Translations under genes and position numbers: made by a program | Origin: a virus | Length of the DNA: 28,526 nucleotides | Direction: 5' to 3' (one strand) | IMG/VR virus record: IMGVR_UViG_3300042465_002074 | Coordinates: 1-28,526 of that record | Part shown: in pieces, positions 15,787-27,107 of the stretch | Numbering within the stretch: position 1 is the stretch's first letter | Layout: each line of letters begins with the position of its first letter | The notes under the pieces: model-generated | What the model was told of the DNA's origin: nothing | Seen by the model: only the letters and a program-made list of their open reading frames with translations | The model's database searches: none

Positions 15787-15977
15787 ACCCGCCACACGCG
15801 CAAACCTTTGATGCCTTCTTCTATAACTACTTTCGTAACAGTAGCCATCTTTAACCGTTTACTTATTGCCGCAATTGTTTCCCGGGCGGCTTTCTCGTCA
15901 ATGCAGGGTACAAAGAAAGAATAGCCGCGTCGGAATTTAGACCAGTCAATCTGATACGACACCGTCTCGATTTTCAT
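15783..15977 (-). CDS. Small hypothetical protein, last gene of leftward operon
   Basis: 64 residues, basic, with an aromatic N-terminal half (YQIDWSKFRRGYSFFVPC) and a helix followed by a beta strand (ETIAAISKRLKMATVTKVVI). The fold looks like a compact alpha/beta domain, and the sequence is not one I can name. It overlaps the end of the primase-helicase gene by 32 nt in another frame, so it is translationally linked to it, and it is followed by the operon terminator. Co-transcription with primase suggests a small replication accessory or DNA-binding protein, but nothing in the sequence proves this. Confidence 0.55.
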   Translation of the reverse strand: MKIETVSYQIDWSKFRRGYSFFVPCIDEKAARETIAAISKRLKMATVTKVVIEEGIKGLRVWRV

Positions 15978-18798
15978 CTTTAGCTACAAAGGCATCCATC
16001 TGTAAGAACTCGGCGGCTGATGCGTCAAACTTCAGCACCCGAACTGCGGGGGATACAACCTTCATGCCTTTGGACATTCGCTTGTTCACACCCTCTAAGT
16101 AAATCTTGGCATTACCCAACTCTTTCAAGGTGGTCTTGTAATTGATTTGTTGTTTGACGCAGAAGTCTTTGAATTGTTTGGCCGCGATAAAGAGTTCTTT
16201 GGTATCTGGCTCGTAGCGTATGAGCAGCTCTCCACGGGGCTCAAGCATGGGCATAGACTGCAAGTTACTACGAGCATCAACTTCACCATTTACAACTAAA
16301 GCATTAATAATGTGGGCGTTAACAAACTCACCAAGAATTGTTACGGGTGTTGAGTTTGGCGCTTGAATCTCAAACCGCATCTCACCGAGCATGCCTTTAA
16401 GCCACTCATACACAGCCTTCATGTCGTAGTTGTGCAGTTCCAACTGAGAAGCAATCAAACCACCAGCTATGTTGCAAGCCGACACGCCTGACCAGAATCG
16501 TTCCTTTTGATTAAACTGTACTTCCCTATCAAGCCGAGCCTGAATCTTGCGCACCAAAGCTATTGCTTCTTCCAAGTTATTGACAACCCACTGAATGTAG
16601 ATTTCACCGGCATGACCAAAGTTTTCGCGCAGTTGGTGGTCAAACATCTGTTTACCCTCTTGCACCTCAATGATGCCGTTGGGTTCAATCTTGTATTCAA
16701 GCAGACGCATGGACTCGCCATCCGGCGTATTCTTTGCCACACCTAACTTCTCGTAGAAGCTGGCGTTTGCCGAACACAAAGTCATACCCTGCCAGCTAGT
16801 GTTGTTAATACGCAACGTATTGGTTTGCCCGTTCATTTTGTTTTTGCCTCGGCCTTGGCTGATGCTATACGCCAAGTCAGAGAACTCCATGCCACTCAGG
16901 TTGGTGATCTCGTCAATAGTATTAGGCAGATTGTTCATCACGCCGAGCTGGTGCATCTTTGCGTTGAACGTATCCTTGTACATAGAGGTCAACCCCTTGG
17001 GTTCACCATACACACTGTTGCACATAAACAACGCTGTCGACTTACCTGAACCAGACTCAGGGTGAATCACGTTAATGATTGCACCTTCAAGACCTGTAAA
17101 TTTCAACAATGGTGAGCCAAATGCCGTAAGTGCGGCAAACGCATGGGGTTCAAGCCCCGGCCTAGCGTACATGTTGAACGCTTCTTTCCACTTCTCCATC
17201 GTGCCTTTAGTGGTTAACTTTCCGGCAATATCTTTCGTAACGCTTGACGGCGGGCTATAAAACACTCCGTCTTTTGTAATCTCTCTATCGCCAAGGATGA
17301 ACTTGCTGTTCCCCTCTACCCAACCAAACTGAGTTCTCATGGTCTCTGCCTTTTTAATGTATTGCAAATTTTTAATAAAGAAAACAACATACCTTGCAAG
17401 CAATTCGTACTGTGCTTTGTGGGCTACAACTCCGTTGTGTGCCAACTGTTTACGCAACTCATCGGGTGACGAGATGCCCATCGTAGGGATACTGAACTCT
17501 CGGACACCGTCATGCGGTAGGTGCAAACGAAACAAAGCTATCTCTCCAAGTTCAGGGTCACGCATGCGTTTGACCACGTACAAGTCATGCTCGTACACAA
17601 GTTTGGGCTCGGCTTCGTCATCTTCGCTCTCAGGGCGAATGTAGACACCACCCTTCTTTCCACGAAAGAATGGAAACGGGTACTCTGGTATATGCTGTAT
17701 CTCAACCTCACCGTCTTTATCTTCGACGGCATATTCGTTATCTTCTGCTTCGGCTTGTTCAATCTCAACACCGAGCATGATGGGCGATTTAATTTTGCCT
17801 CTATGGATGCAACCCTCGCAACCTTGCGGATTGAGTTTTGCAAATGTCGCGCAGTGATGTGGGCCACCTTTGCTACGCAGGTTGTTAACTTTATTGTCAA
17901 CTTCTACGGCATCGTAGCCCTCATGCTTATTCGACAGTTTATGTGCGGCCTTGTCTCCGTCTACGCAGAAAGCTGCAATAGAAAGAGCGGAGCGCCACAG
18001 TGGTTCTTCGATATCGTTTTGGTTTTCAAAGCAGTGATTAAGTTGGGCGCACCCACCTTCACCCTTCATCATGATCGTCTTAAACCGTTTGATCTTGTTA
18101 CCCATGAGTGCTTCCATCATCGGGCTCATTGAGCGCGGAATGAAATCGGGTACATCGTCCTTTGGTTCAGGCGCACCAAGCAAGTCTTTAACTTCTTGGT
18201 ATGTCATGCGAGGCGTCAGTTCGTTTAGTACTGTTACCTCTTTGGGCTCTTCCTGCTTGAAATTGAATGTGCCGGGGATGCGCAGGATACGTGAAGCCTC
18301 AAATACTGAGGAGTCCACAATTAACCCTTGCTCAACGCACAACTCACGAAGCCGATTGGCTAGTGGCTCCCACTCTCGGCGAGACACTGTTTCTTCTAGT
18401 AGCCAGTACGCATGTATGCCGTAACCAGAACTTACTAGTATTGGCCTTGGTAAGCCGACCGCAATGCAGAACTTCTTGAACTCATCGAGTCCGGTTTGCT
18501 GATCGAGATAGCCTTTGATAATGCCTTTTTTGTCGGGTACACCTTTGGTTGGGCCACAGTCAATGTCCATCCACAGAGCACGGAAGTATTTAGCATTTTC
18601 ATGGGTGCGGTTGTTTAACGATCCGTACTTGGCGCATCCAAAGAATACGTCAATCTTGCGTTTAACAAACTGCTGCGCTAGCTCTTCAACCTCTTCCTTA
18701 GTATCTACAAAATTCTGGTCAGGATACTTACCAATCCCCATCACACAGTAGCGCCCTTCCGGTGGCAGTACCGTATCGAGTAGATCGAAAGATGACAT
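15946..18798 (-). CDS. AEP-type primase fused to helicase-like ATPase
   Basis: 950 residues. N-terminal archaeo-eukaryotic primase domain: catalytic hDhD at ALWMDIDCG (D78, D80), the SxH-type motif SSGYGIHAYW (H129) and the third-acid region VDSSVFEASRILRIPGTFNF (D162 candidate). A Cys-rich linker follows (HHCATFAKLNPQGCEGCIHR), as in related phage primases. The C-terminal half has a DUF927-like ATPase: Walker A HPESGSGKST near residue 580 and Walker B NTIDEIT near 625. The protein would lay primers and unwind the fork for the family A polymerase of this phage. The last ten residues, DENRDGVVSD, resemble the start of an EF-hand loop. Preceded by the HTH gene with a 3-nt gap. Domain calls are from motifs; helicase polarity is unknown. 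Confidence 0.8.
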   Translation of the reverse strand: MSSFDLLDTVLPPEGRYCVMGIGKYPDQNFVDTKEEVEELAQQFVKRKIDVFFGCAKYGSLNNRTHENAKYFRALWMDIDCGPTKGVPDKKGIIKGYLDQQTGLDEFKKFCIAVGLPRPILVSSGYGIHAYWLLEETVSRREWEPLANRLRELCVEQGLIVDSSVFEASRILRIPGTFNFKQEEPKEVTVLNELTPRMTYQEVKDLLGAPEPKDDVPDFIPRSMSPMMEALMGNKIKRFKTIMMKGEGGCAQLNHCFENQNDIEEPLWRSALSIAAFCVDGDKAAHKLSNKHEGYDAVEVDNKVNNLRSKGGPHHCATFAKLNPQGCEGCIHRGKIKSPIMLGVEIEQAEAEDNEYAVEDKDGEVEIQHIPEYPFPFFRGKKGGVYIRPESEDDEAEPKLVYEHDLYVVKRMRDPELGEIALFRLHLPHDGVREFSIPTMGISSPDELRKQLAHNGVVAHKAQYELLARYVVFFIKNLQYIKKAETMRTQFGWVEGNSKFILGDREITKDGVFYSPPSSVTKDIAGKLTTKGTMEKWKEAFNMYARPGLEPHAFAALTAFGSPLLKFTGLEGAIINVIHPESGSGKSTALFMCNSVYGEPKGLTSMYKDTFNAKMHQLGVMNNLPNTIDEITNLSGMEFSDLAYSISQGRGKNKMNGQTNTLRINNTSWQGMTLCSANASFYEKLGVAKNTPDGESMRLLEYKIEPNGIIEVQEGKQMFDHQLRENFGHAGEIYIQWVVNNLEEAIALVRKIQARLDREVQFNQKERFWSGVSACNIAGGLIASQLELHNYDMKAVYEWLKGMLGEMRFEIQAPNSTPVTILGEFVNAHIINALVVNGEVDARSNLQSMPMLEPRGELLIRYEPDTKELFIAAKQFKDFCVKQQINYKTTLKELGNAKIYLEGVNKRMSKGMKVVSPAVRVLKFDASAAEFLQMDAFVAKDENRDGVVSD

Positions 18799-18801
18799 GT
18801 T

Positions 18802-19050
18802 TTACTTTATTTGGATGGTGGCTTGGGTATGGTTTATGTAATCGCTAATGGCTTCATCGTAGCTATGGTAGGGGACAGAATCCCCCTTGAACCAATTGTA
18901 GATAGTCATCCGAGTTACCCCGAAGGCTCCTGCAACTTCGCTAACGCTGATGTTTGCGCGGATACAAACACGACCCAAGGCCACACCCAAAGACTTGATG
19001 CTTGCTTTTCTATTTGCGTACACCAAGCTTTGGCTGTAACCATAGGGCAT
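18802..19050 (-). CDS. Small HTH DNA-binding protein
   Basis: 82 residues from the ATG at 19050. The longer GTG start at 19065 would overlap the upstream gene, whereas GAGG lies seven bases before this ATG and the upstream stop is one base away. A helix-turn-helix is clear at about residues 30-58: ANISVSEVAGAFGVTRMTIYNWFKG, split here as ANISVSEVAGAF and GVTRMTIYNWFKG. This is the Cro/CI or Fis-like type. The rest is short and basic with no effector domain. It sits between the SSB-like protein and the primase, where it may bind the origin or act as a repressor of the operon. The HTH is seen; its target is not known. Confidence 0.7.
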   Translation of the reverse strand: MPYGYSQSLVYANRKASIKSLGVALGRVCIRANISVSEVAGAFGVTRMTIYNWFKGDSVPYHSYDEAISDYINHTQATIQIK

Positions 19051-19051
19051 A

Positions 19052-19936
19052 TTAATCCTCGTCACTCCAAGCCTTCACCACAGAGTCAAGGTCTTTCTTA
19101 ACTGTGGGCTTAGGGTCAGCTTTCTTTTCACGCTTAGTGGGTTCCTCAATAGGAGACTCAACTTTAGGCGCGGCGGCTTTCGGCGCTTCTAACTTGGCTT
19201 GCTTACCCGCCATGTCAGCTTGGTATGGTGTCATAACGACCATCTTCAGCACGTCAGGCTTCTTAGCTACTTCGCTAGTCACAGCGTACTGCGCTTTGTT
19301 AATGTAGCCAGTCGGCGTGAACAACACAGATTGGTTGTCGTTCTCTTCGTTGAAGCTGATCTGCGTAACAACGTAGTCCAAGCTCTTGCCGTTGTTGGAC
19401 AAGTACTTAGAGTAGTTTTCAAAGGTGTGGGTGTTGTCACCAGCACCGTCACCAAACAATGACTTGGATGCCAAGTTCATTTGATACACTTCGCCTTCAA
19501 GTGAAGTACCGAAGTCTTCTTCTAACACGAGCGCAATGCGACGTGAGTAACGGCAAGCTTTTGAGTTGCCCATACCTGAACCCTTGGTGTTTTGGGTGCA
19601 GTTATCGCAACGCTCAGCTTGTTTGTTTGCTGAACCATCATCAGGCGTACGACCATCATTAGAGAAGCAGTCGGGCGCAGTCGGCTCAGCATCGGGACTC
19701 CATGCTTTTGCATAGAAGATACGACCCACGGCAGGGGACGCATTAACGATGATGGCGTTCAGGTTGCCCTTGATCTTGCCCATCTCTTCACCGCCGACCG
19801 TCTTACGGAAGATTCCGTTTTTAGGCACGATGCGCTTAACGCCAGACTTACCGGCGAGTTGTTTTGTAAGCTCGCTAACACCTGCACTTTGCAGGAAGTC
19901 GGGGAGGTCTTGGTTGAGAATAGTAAGATTACTCAT
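19052..19936 (-). CDS. Putative zinc-containing single-stranded DNA-binding protein
   Basis: 294 residues from the ATG at 19936, chosen because an AAGGA sits just upstream and the previous stop ends at 19938; the frame can be extended by 20 codons upstream but would overlap that gene. The N-terminal half is beta-rich (GVKRIVPKNGIFRKTVGGEE). Four cysteines, C90, C110, C113 and C128 (ERCDNCTQNT, SKACRYSRRIALVLE), form a likely zinc site. The C-terminus is Lys/Pro/Ala-rich and ends in the acidic tail LDSVVKAWSDED, a feature of phage and bacterial SSBs that bind partner proteins. T4 gp32 also has a zinc site and an acidic tail. I recognise this family from uncultured phages; SSB function is inferred, not shown. 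Confidence 0.55.
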   Translation of the reverse strand: MSNLTILNQDLPDFLQSAGVSELTKQLAGKSGVKRIVPKNGIFRKTVGGEEMGKIKGNLNAIIVNASPAVGRIFYAKAWSPDAEPTAPDCFSNDGRTPDDGSANKQAERCDNCTQNTKGSGMGNSKACRYSRRIALVLEEDFGTSLEGEVYQMNLASKSLFGDGAGDNTHTFENYSKYLSNNGKSLDYVVTQISFNEENDNQSVLFTPTGYINKAQYAVTSEVAKKPDVLKMVVMTPYQADMAGKQAKLEAPKAAAPKVESPIEEPTKREKKADPKPTVKKDLDSVVKAWSDED

Positions 19937-19937
19937 T

Positions 19938-20363
19938 TCATTTTTCCTTAGAACGTCTAACAACCACGGTATAAGCATTTTCCACATTGAGGCCAAGTGG
20001 AAGAACTGTGGGATTCTCAGATAAAAACTCCTTCATGTTTGTTTGATGAAGTCTCTTCTCTAACAGGCCAAATGCACCGTGCTCCTCTATGAAGTCGTAC
20101 ATTGAATCCCAATCGTTCGTCCAGTACCGTGACTTTACCGAGCGAATGATTGTGCCGTGTGGGGTGCGAATGCTATCAGCATTCATCTCTTTACATATAT
20201 CAAGCATTTGTGCCTCTAACACTTCCGCTTGCTCTTTGAGATCGTTGTCTTCAGCTTCAAACATGCGCTTGTTGTCGGCACGCTTGTCTCTGATCTTGAT
20301 ATAGATTGTGGTCAACTTGTCCAAATCCATGGGGGTGACTCTATCCTTGACTTCTTCGTCCAT
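19938..20363 (-). CDS. Coiled-coil replication-region protein, unknown function
   Basis: 141 residues. The N-terminal half is a charged helical coiled-coil (LTTIYIKIRDKRADNKRMFE and KEQAEVLEAQMLDICKEMN). It is followed by a small beta region (TPHGTIIRSVKSRYW) and a conserved tail with EKRLHQTNMKEFL and VLPLGLNVENAYTVVVRR. The layout recalls phage Gam-like or host-nuclease-inhibitor proteins, but I cannot claim that family. This is the first gene behind the 20486-20513 promoter and its structured leader, with AGGAG seven bases before the ATG. The gene ends one base before the SSB-like start, so the two are probably translated together. Confidence 0.65.
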   Translation of the reverse strand: MDEEVKDRVTPMDLDKLTTIYIKIRDKRADNKRMFEAEDNDLKEQAEVLEAQMLDICKEMNADSIRTPHGTIIRSVKSRYWTNDWDSMYDFIEEHGAFGLLEKRLHQTNMKEFLSENPTVLPLGLNVENAYTVVVRRSKEK

Positions 20364-20383
20364 CTGATTCTCCTAATGGTTGG

Positions 20384-20478
20384 GTGTGCGGCAGTAGCAG
20401 TTCACATGAAGCAGTGTGTTTCAAAACATAGAAAGCAATTCAGTAACGGCGCTAACCCGTTACCCACTACTGCCACAC
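20384..20478 (-). ncRNA. Structured 5' leader RNA of the SSB-primase operon
   Basis: Part of a 130-nt gap between the helicase gene and the coiled-coil gene. On the minus strand the RNA would start about 20478 with GTGTGGCAGTAG (20478-20467). That pairs with CTACTGC-CG-CACAC (20397-20384), giving 12 bp with a 2-nt bulge. Inside, GTAACGG and CCGTTAC (20443-20463) form a 7-bp hairpin. A further CACAC near 20414-20418 could compete for the 5' GTGTG. The outer stem ends about 20 nt before the ATG, so folding could affect access to the AGGAG. It could be a cis-regulator, a stability element or an antitermination signal. No known riboswitch class was recognised. Confidence 0.45.
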
Positions 20479-20485
20479 AAATCTA

Positions 20486-20513
20486 ATTCTACTCTAACTT
20501 TTTACATTGTCAA
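20486..20513 (-). promoter_or_regulatory. Sigma70-type promoter for the SSB-primase operon
   Basis: On the minus strand: -35 TTGACA (20513-20508), a 16-bp spacer, and -10 TAGAAT (20491-20486). The -35 box lies inside the last codons of the SNF2-helicase gene. Predicted start is at about 20478-20479, exactly at the 5' arm of the leader stem. It shares the block TTGACAA[TA]GTAAAAAGTTA with the promoter at 27068-27095. Confidence 0.75.
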
Positions 20514-21897
20514 GAGTTTCCGAAGAAATTTCTTGCTTGTATAGATCAATTACTTTTTGGTGATTGTTGATGTTGCCCTGAAGCATCGTGTACATCTTGG
20601 CTTCAATGGGGCTACCCGTAATGTGTACGACTGTCATGTTATTAACTTGCCCGGGGCGGTCGATACGTGCGTTGGCTTGCAAGTACGTTTCAACACTTGT
20701 GCATGGAGCATACCAAATAATTGTGTTAGCGGCAGTTAGAGTTAACCCGTGTGAGGCCGCTTTCGGTTGGATGATTAATACTTTTGGTTCCGGTTGCTCT
20801 TGAAACTGCTTGACAATATCCGAGCGTTTGTTTACAGGAACCGAGCCGTTAATTACTTCGCACGTGATGTTGTGTTTCTGCAAGTGTTTCTCGAGCAACT
20901 GTATGGTGTGCGTGAACGGAACAAACACAAGCACCTTGTGGCTTGACTCTTCAATTACCTCTTGCACTACGTTGAGCCTATTGCTTACGTCAAACTCAAT
21001 GACTTCGTTCGTATCCGTATACACCGCACCTCCAGCTATTTGCAGAAGTTTGTTAATTTGAACGGCGGCGTTAACGGCAGATACTTCTTCTCCAGCAGCC
21101 TCAATCAGCATCTGCTTCTTTAGTATGTTGTAGAACTTTAACTGCTGCGGTGTCAATGGTGCATCTCGTTCAACGAATGTAACGGGCGGCAAATCAAGGC
21201 AGTCGGCTTTCTCAAACCGAATGGCGGGTTGTAATGCTTTATGCACGATGAGTTGCGACGTCGGTTTGGGTATCCACTTGTACATAGTGAGCTTCATCAT
21301 CACTGTGTCTCTAAACTGACCAAAGAAGGGCGACACACCCTTGGGGTTCACAAGCTTTGCTAATCCGTAAGCATCCACAGGCGACTGTGCGGCAGGCGTA
21401 CCCGTCAACATCCACAAGCCCTTGATAACTTTTGTTAGATCACGCAAGTCTTTCCAACGCTCAGTCTGTGCGTTCTTATAGGCTGACGCCTCATCTACTA
21501 CGATGAGGTCAAACCCACCCGCCATGATTTCTTTCTTGACGATACCCACACCATCGAAGTTAATAACAACGAACTCGGCACCAAGATTCACAATCTCTTT
21601 GCGCTTACGTGCGGCTCCATAAGCGACTGATACGGTGCGGTGAATGGCAAACTTAAACAAATCATTCTGCCAAGCCGACTTCATAATCGACAAGGGGCAG
21701 ATTACTAATACACGCTTCACTAATCCAATGGTCATGAGGTAGTCGATTGCCCAAATTACTGATGCGGTCTTACCTGTACCTTGCTCGTTAAAGCAAAATG
21801 CCTTGCGGTTTGTTGTAAGGAATTCTGCTGTTGTCTTCTGATGTTCGAACGGCGTGAACCCCGGGGGACGAGGCCACGTATACTCTGATAGGTTCAT
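20494..21897 (-). CDS. SNF2-type superfamily 2 helicase/translocase
   Basis: 467 residues with the full set of SNF2 motifs. These are a Q-type motif (HQKTTAEF, Q20), Walker A NEQGTGKT (37-44), Walker B VVDEAS (133-138), motif III MLTGTPA (163-169), and motif VI QANARIDRPGQ (407-417). An ATP-driven DNA translocase is expected, likely acting in replication, recombination or fork remodelling. Its length is near the minimum for the family and there is no extra domain. The ATG overlaps the HNH-gene stop by 4 nt. The last codons carry the -35 box of the next promoter, so this gene closes one transcription block and the next begins within it. Confidence 0.9.
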   Translation of the reverse strand: MNLSEYTWPRPPGFTPFEHQKTTAEFLTTNRKAFCFNEQGTGKTASVIWAIDYLMTIGLVKRVLVICPLSIMKSAWQNDLFKFAIHRTVSVAYGAARKRKEIVNLGAEFVVINFDGVGIVKKEIMAGGFDLIVVDEASAYKNAQTERWKDLRDLTKVIKGLWMLTGTPAAQSPVDAYGLAKLVNPKGVSPFFGQFRDTVMMKLTMYKWIPKPTSQLIVHKALQPAIRFEKADCLDLPPVTFVERDAPLTPQQLKFYNILKKQMLIEAAGEEVSAVNAAVQINKLLQIAGGAVYTDTNEVIEFDVSNRLNVVQEVIEESSHKVLVFVPFTHTIQLLEKHLQKHNITCEVINGSVPVNKRSDIVKQFQEQPEPKVLIIQPKAASHGLTLTAANTIIWYAPCTSVETYLQANARIDRPGQVNNMTVVHITGSPIEAKMYTMLQGNINNHQKVIDLYKQEISSETLDNVKS

Positions 21898-27067: not shown

Positions 27068-27095
27068 ATAGTAACATAACTTTTTACTTTGTCAA
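27068..27095 (-). promoter_or_regulatory. Sigma70-type promoter for the polymerase-nuclease operon
   Basis: On the minus strand: -35 TTGACA (27095-27090), 16-bp spacer, -10 TACTAT (27073-27068). The -35 box and spacer start are the same block, TTGACAA[TA]GTAAAAAGTTA, as in the promoter at 20486-20513. The predicted start lies at about 27061, giving a roughly 25-nt leader before the ATG at 27037. Confidence 0.75.
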
Positions 27096-27107
27096 TAGTA
27101 CAGACGT

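Follow-up and report, generated by a model that had tools for sequence, protein, structure and literature searches.

The window, by which we mean the whole stretch of 28,526 nucleotides analysed here, carries a replication operon on its minus strand. Upstream, on the same strand, lies a gene annotated as an SNF2-type helicase (20494 to 21897), and the operon itself is made up of a first gene for a 141-aa protein (phrog_13900; 19938 to 20363), a gene for a probable gp32-like SSB (294 aa, phrog_27714; 19052 to 19936), a small helix-turn-helix protein gene (18802 to 19065) and a primase/helicase gene with DUF927 (15946 to 18798), the first gene and the last two being assigned by annotation. The family of the first gene is labelled 'minor head protein' (phrog_13900; Xp15 gp41, L365:4036-4482), a label that is odd between a helicase and an SSB and may be wrong.

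The promoter that the sequence-only reading had described upstream of these genes is present in all its elements. On the minus strand, a TTGACA box (20513 to 20508, within the 3' end of the helicase gene) and a TAGAAT box (20491 to 20486) are separated by a 16-base spacer and score 11/12, and the start predicted from this sequence falls about 7 bases on, at 20479-20478. No second promoter-like site was found between 19800 and 21000, while shuffled sequences average 1.8 sites under a looser 9/12 rule. Moreover, the promoter is kept as TTGACA-16-TAnnnT almost throughout the leaders of 141 relatives (the gaps between the helicase and the next gene), with TTGACA itself in nearly all of them; the script gave a weaker promoter score to the identical leaders of L149 and L150, and their gaps too begin with TGACA. 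A second promoter-like copy (TTGACAAAGTAAAAAG...), 91% identical to the leader promoter over 23 bases, is seen elsewhere in the window (27077 to 27099), followed by a short leader with no evident stem.

The promoter leads straight into a folded leader RNA, as had been proposed. The element is about 95 nt long and has four parts: the base stem P1, the hairpin P2 (loop GUUAGCG), a linker that varies between copies and the hairpin P3 (loop UGCUUNAU). P1 is a 16-bp stem whose 5' strand (TGTGTGGCAGTAGTGG; 20464 to 20479, minus strand) begins at the predicted +1 and whose 3' strand (CTGCTACTGCCGCACA; 20385 to 20400, minus strand) ends 10 nt before the Shine-Dalgarno sequence AGGAG of the next gene (20370 to 20374, minus strand), which lies outside the stem; its outer 13-nt part is 92% complementary. 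Enclosed by P1, all on the minus strand, are P2 (GTAACGG at 20457 to 20463 and CCGTTAC at 20443 to 20449), with the conserved loop L2 and its closing pairs (GGGTTAGCGCC; 20448 to 20458), then the linker (20417 to 20442), which forms a weak TTTC/GAAA hairpin in the window copy, and the conserved hairpin P3-L3 (CACTGCTTCATGTG; 20403 to 20416). The leader folds at -40.8 kcal/mol, whereas dinucleotide shuffles give -29.2 +/- 3.5 kcal/mol (z -3.3), and none of 200 shuffles reached so low a value. P1 and P2 correspond to the pairing of the 5' arm with CTACTGC-CG-CACAC around a GTAACGG/CCGTTAC hairpin that had been drawn before. The alternative pairing of the 5' GTGTG with CACAC (20418 to 20414) can also be drawn in the window, and it is possible in just 16 of 50 distinct relatives' leaders; we therefore rejected it as a conserved pairing.

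The leader hairpin is a real, evolutionarily conserved RNA structure of this strand. P1 and P2 covary strongly in 33 diverse copies, and in 72 distinct copies that were found later and left out when the structure was drawn, double changes occur in 15 of 15 scored P1 pairs and in 5 of 7 P2 pairs. Across these 72 copies, 89.6% of the cells are paired (60.9% when shuffled and at most 46% when the alignment is slid), with 527 double-change cells against 167; because the alignment was fitted to the model it is biased in the model's favour, yet the effect sizes and the control by sliding leave little doubt. Compensatory changes in relatives thus favour the fold. Furthermore, the six pairs of P1 columns 12-17 contain 40 G-U cells and zero other mismatches in the 72 copies, indicating an RNA of this strand rather than a DNA palindrome. 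An inverted repeat working at the DNA level, as a recombination or protein-binding site, or an ordinary terminator hairpin would be in line with the exchange of the interior between loci and with a terminator-like pattern called at P2. Against this, besides the G-U tolerance of the P1 core, the strand is fixed relative to the promoter, and P2 has no real U-tract and sits inside an mRNA leader, so that we regard this explanation as scarcely credible.

While the stems vary, the two loops GG-GUUAGCG-CC (L2) and CAC-UGCUUNAU-GUG (L3) are nearly invariant, L2 reading GGGUUAGC(G/U)CC and L3 CACUGCUUNAUGUG in the family, a conservation that is partly selection because the scans gathered copies by those words. 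Model searches without a loop requirement nevertheless returned only small variants (GGGTTAGCTCC, CTTGATG, GTGCCC or GTGAGC), and a scan of viral contigs found no other base in place of the loop G of AGCG in L2. A kissing contact between L2 and L3 (AGCG with UGCU) can be drawn; its bases never covary, and a scan for copies with a changed L2 and free L3 partners gave none. In the linker, a conserved hairpin is unsupported as a general helix (mean z 0.43 over 100 linkers). The anti-Shine-Dalgarno words CTCC or TCCT occur in 31 of 50 linkers of the window clade (5.6 in shuffles) and in 48 of 107 copies elsewhere, where they frequently form the 5' side of a short hairpin within the linker, these counts being non-independent as linker alleles are shared between copies. 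Linkers of copies with different base stems are 83-96% alike, above a shuffled maximum of 71%, and this likeness despite different P1 sequences suggests that the interior of the element may have been exchanged between phages.

We gathered at least 150 IMG/VR loci with the SSB and helicase by scans, and among the 141 leaders compared, 84 carry the structure of the window. Six others (L029, L045, L107, L131, L146 and L074) have small 5'-terminal hairpins of unrelated sequence, three (L124, L141 and L147) have other large folds, and the remaining leaders are unstructured and about 8-23 nt long. A helicase tree with 94 rows requires at least 5 changes of the structured state and 7 of the plain-hairpin state, 5 of these 7 being forced by branches with good support. 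In the cultured Xanthomonas phage Xp15, whose helicase is 38% identical, the gene order matches that of the window, and directly after TACAAT, at about +1, this phage carries a long stem (GGTTGAGTGCAGCCC/GGGCTGCGCTCAACC) that is unrelated in sequence to the element and is not recognised by the covariance model. These varied stems behind a kept promoter, that of Xp15 included, point to repeated origin: judged by sequence comparison, the +1 stem of this operon arose several times. The window clade is a natural experiment in which one promoter and operon can be compared in four states (element, plain hairpin, other fold or no leader structure), so that the stem and the loops can be tested for their roles independently. 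In Xp15 the gap before the SSB-like gene (L365:4483-4674) also contains a long hairpin of very high stability (GGATGCCGTCGCCGC...GCGGCGGCATCC) together with a terminator-like stem.

As far as sequence and covariance searches can tell, the element is a member of an undescribed RNA family, widespread in many unrelated uncultured phages. At least 119 stretches of viral contigs contain the word GGGTTAGCGCC and the word CACTGCTTYATGTGAAC, the spacer between them being left free, and at least 78 further matches appear on allowing other bases after GTG; among 84,980 species genomes there is a single match to the two words, in a MAG contig. Altogether at least 171 distinct copies were collected, many of them unrelated to the window operon and with wholly different stems; these counts come from scans of uncultured and mostly fragmentary contigs and are lower bounds. 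Searched against Rfam 15, the window has no match at the gathering threshold, and 5 + 16 loci with copies gave nothing but one sRNA-Xcc1 and one tRNA, both elsewhere in the loci. A partial match of RAGATH-35 (RF03056) over P2 and the linker reaches 15.3 bits (E 4.3), far below the gathering score of 38.9, and was treated as chance. None of the records of cultured phages has both core parts, the model does not match four cultured relatives, and no described phage RNA of such a kind was recognised in the openly accessible literature. The family shares with GOLLD and the other ornate lake and phage RNAs that it is a structured phage noncoding RNA known largely from metagenomes. GOLLD is far larger than the element, and the element has no match in Rfam. 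A strongly supported, previously undescribed RNA family is thereby added to phages common in metagenomes. The sequence-only reading, which had no view of the wider family, was right in seeing a structured leader; a private switch for the SSB of this phage does not fit a family spread across so many phages.

Copies of the element are found in leaders, between genes and in apparently stand-alone noncoding RNAs, beside helicase, SSB, primase, primosomal, terminase, capsid, methylase and HNH genes. In records of 30-68 kb the element is present at one locus, sometimes as a tandem pair, and its position changes between genomes; two extra matches in those records (E about 0.001-0.004) are doubtful. 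Among 80 non-redundant copies flanked by a gene on either side, a script that assigned context classes placed 39 between two co-directional genes and 15 ahead of a gene with a divergent upstream neighbour, while the other 26 have no co-directional next gene. Some copies are followed by U-tracts resembling the ends of stand-alone RNAs. A -10-like box ends 6-8 nt before P1 more often than other offsets would predict: in 23 of 84 non-redundant copies where 2.9 are expected and, outside the clade of the window operon, in 16 of 74 where 2.3 are expected. These counts follow a simple rule, and chance probably accounts for a few of the 16 (for instance those inside a neighbouring hairpin arm).

These contexts bear on a possible, if doubtful, explanation, the main rival of the reading preferred below, namely that the element is a self-contained trans-acting RNA (a small RNA, a decoy or a scaffold domain) that rides in untranslated regions and is here released from, or simply carried on, the replication mRNA. 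Such an RNA would account for the usual single locus per genome with changing positions, the diverse neighbours (terminase, capsid, methylase, HNH and replication genes), the 26 of 80 copies lacking a co-directional next gene, the U-tract ends of some copies, the conserved loops on variable stems and the sharing of linker variants, up to 96% alike, by loci whose P1 differs. It explains less well that the window clade has the element exactly at the predicted +1 of an mRNA whose ribosome-binding site follows after 10 nt, and that plain hairpins replace the element there, which suggests a cis role of the stem. A fuller form of this idea, which we consider rather improbable, is that an exchanged phage RNA acts in trans through its invariant loops on a conserved component of the host or of rival phages, with linker alleles giving specificity, one locus being kept per genome in any available untranslated region, here the +1 of the replication mRNA.

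The same independence of context, together with intergenic and sometimes tandem copies and a fixed core on variable stems, would also suit a self-cleaving ribozyme or an RNase processing site, either of which would divide transcripts between genes. However, searches of Rfam as permissive as E 5 show no ribozyme resembling the element, and its conserved bases are in hairpin loops rather than in the junction strands, which vary; we consider such an activity quite unlikely.

The product of 19052 to 19936 is likely a gp32-type SSB, so that its SSB-like label in the sequence-only reading was probably right. Its AlphaFold2 model (24 rows; pLDDT 68.9, pTM 0.64) is matched best in VIA-align, over 162 residues, by the cores of RB69 gp32 (Z 7.8) and T4 gp32 (Z 7.5), with other OB-fold proteins at 5.8 or less; Z values of 7-8 are moderate and could reflect a common arrangement, yet both top rows are gp32. 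Cysteines 90, 110, 113 and 128 are invariant in the SSB family, as a zinc site would need. A PDB sequence search with the protein gave zero matches, and Foldseek alone none at E 0.001.

Autogenous translational control by this protein, as in T4 gene 32, had been suggested for the leader. The two systems are alike in that a leader precedes an operon with a gp32-like SSB (fold match Z 7.8, moderate), here encoded by the second gene downstream. In the T4 gp32 operator, a 5' pseudoknot precedes UUAAA/UAAA repeats that are less structured and cover the ribosome-binding site (PMC535899), whereas the element is a junction, and neither the sequence nor the fold of the leader contains a pseudoknot with UUAAA/UAAA over the ribosome-binding site. 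Nor do the element and the SSB gene travel together, each occurring without the other: an SSB profile found its target in 5 of 5 records expected to have the SSB and no homolog in 25 of 25 element-bearing records outside the window operon, and relatives of the operon retain the SSB without the element. As the contigs are mostly fragments, absence from one record is weak evidence, and it is the 25 of 25 that counts. The SSB is also not the first gene of the operon, and the element often has no co-directional next gene. We therefore rejected SSB autogenous control as the function of the family, and such control of the operon has very little probability.

Another possibility, antitermination, has its model in HK022 put, an RNA of about 70 nt with two stem-loops from a lambdoid phage, whose putL site lies just downstream of its promoter (PMC9378689). 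A nascent element that bound host RNA polymerase and so prevented termination along the operon would likewise be a phage RNA of conserved sequence folded right after a promoter; the element is at a promoter +1 in several unrelated phages, and its invariant loops would fit a conserved host target. In contrast to the two stem-loops of put, the element forms one closed 3- to 4-way junction on a long base stem, and it is not an RNA of about 70 nt with two stem-loops after an early promoter. Moreover, 22 copies have a convergent next gene, several stand after a terminator, copies in 3' and stand-alone settings fit badly, and no terminator was identified inside the window operon. Antitermination is accordingly an unlikely role.

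The reading we prefer, tentatively and at somewhat less than an even chance, is that this new phage RNA family supplies here a 5'-terminal protective stem of the replication mRNA. In such a mechanism, a sigma70-type promoter would start the transcript at the first base of P1, and P1 at the predicted +1 would shield the 5' end while leaving the ribosome-binding site free. Stems at the 5' terminus are known to stabilise mRNA, and a +1 stem with a free ribosome-binding site is an established design (reviewed in PMC3997798). With its start as predicted, the element has the stem near +1 that is typical of mRNA-stabilising stems, and like the leader stabilisers of ompA and papA it begins at +1 with hardly any unpaired 5' nucleotides and lies upstream of the ribosome-binding site. 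The repeated invention of a stem at a kept promoter fits 5'-terminal stabilisers as well, and of the roles suggested for the leader by the sequence-only reading, a stabilising 5' stem is the one that the evidence favours. Protection would not be essential, because many relatives have short and unstructured leaders. The 26 of 80 copies elsewhere without a co-directional next gene also show that a 5'-leader role is not the whole function of the family. Furthermore, the ompA and papA leaders are plain stem-loops, whereas the stem of the element closes a junction with two invariant loops and recurs in many phages. Two invariant loops exceed the needs of a mere protective stem; we infer that they must also contact one another or bind a partner shared by the hosts of many phages. 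The conservation of the core across otherwise unrelated phages likewise implies that a specific molecular partner should exist.

Several other RNA features were observed near copies of the element. A second recurrent hairpin, CCAAnACGCATGGRGATTG ... CAGTCYCCAGCCGTGTTGG with a symmetric internal loop CA/GC, is often chained to the element or encloses it (L166, L175, L184, L201, L222, L290, L346 and about 25 other loci); 33 distinct copies fit a simple pattern, and Rfam has no match for it. A possible third module, starting with about GAAAGCGG and ending with AGCGAGTA or GTTAGTACC, is located downstream of the element in L166, L175 and L258, and in L141 and L147 it replaces the element after the same promoter. 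Noncoding stretches of several hundred bases in L161, L222, L159, L233 and L250 hold tandem promoters, terminators and further structured RNAs, one of which starts with GTTGCTGTCGGAGGCAATGA. An sRNA-Xcc1 (RF02221) lies above its gathering score in a phage contig (L203:6468-6552), and in L175 (13500-13699) a tRNA-like T-arm (GTGGGTTCGAATCCCAC) is found within an RNA chain, directly before a tRNA gene.
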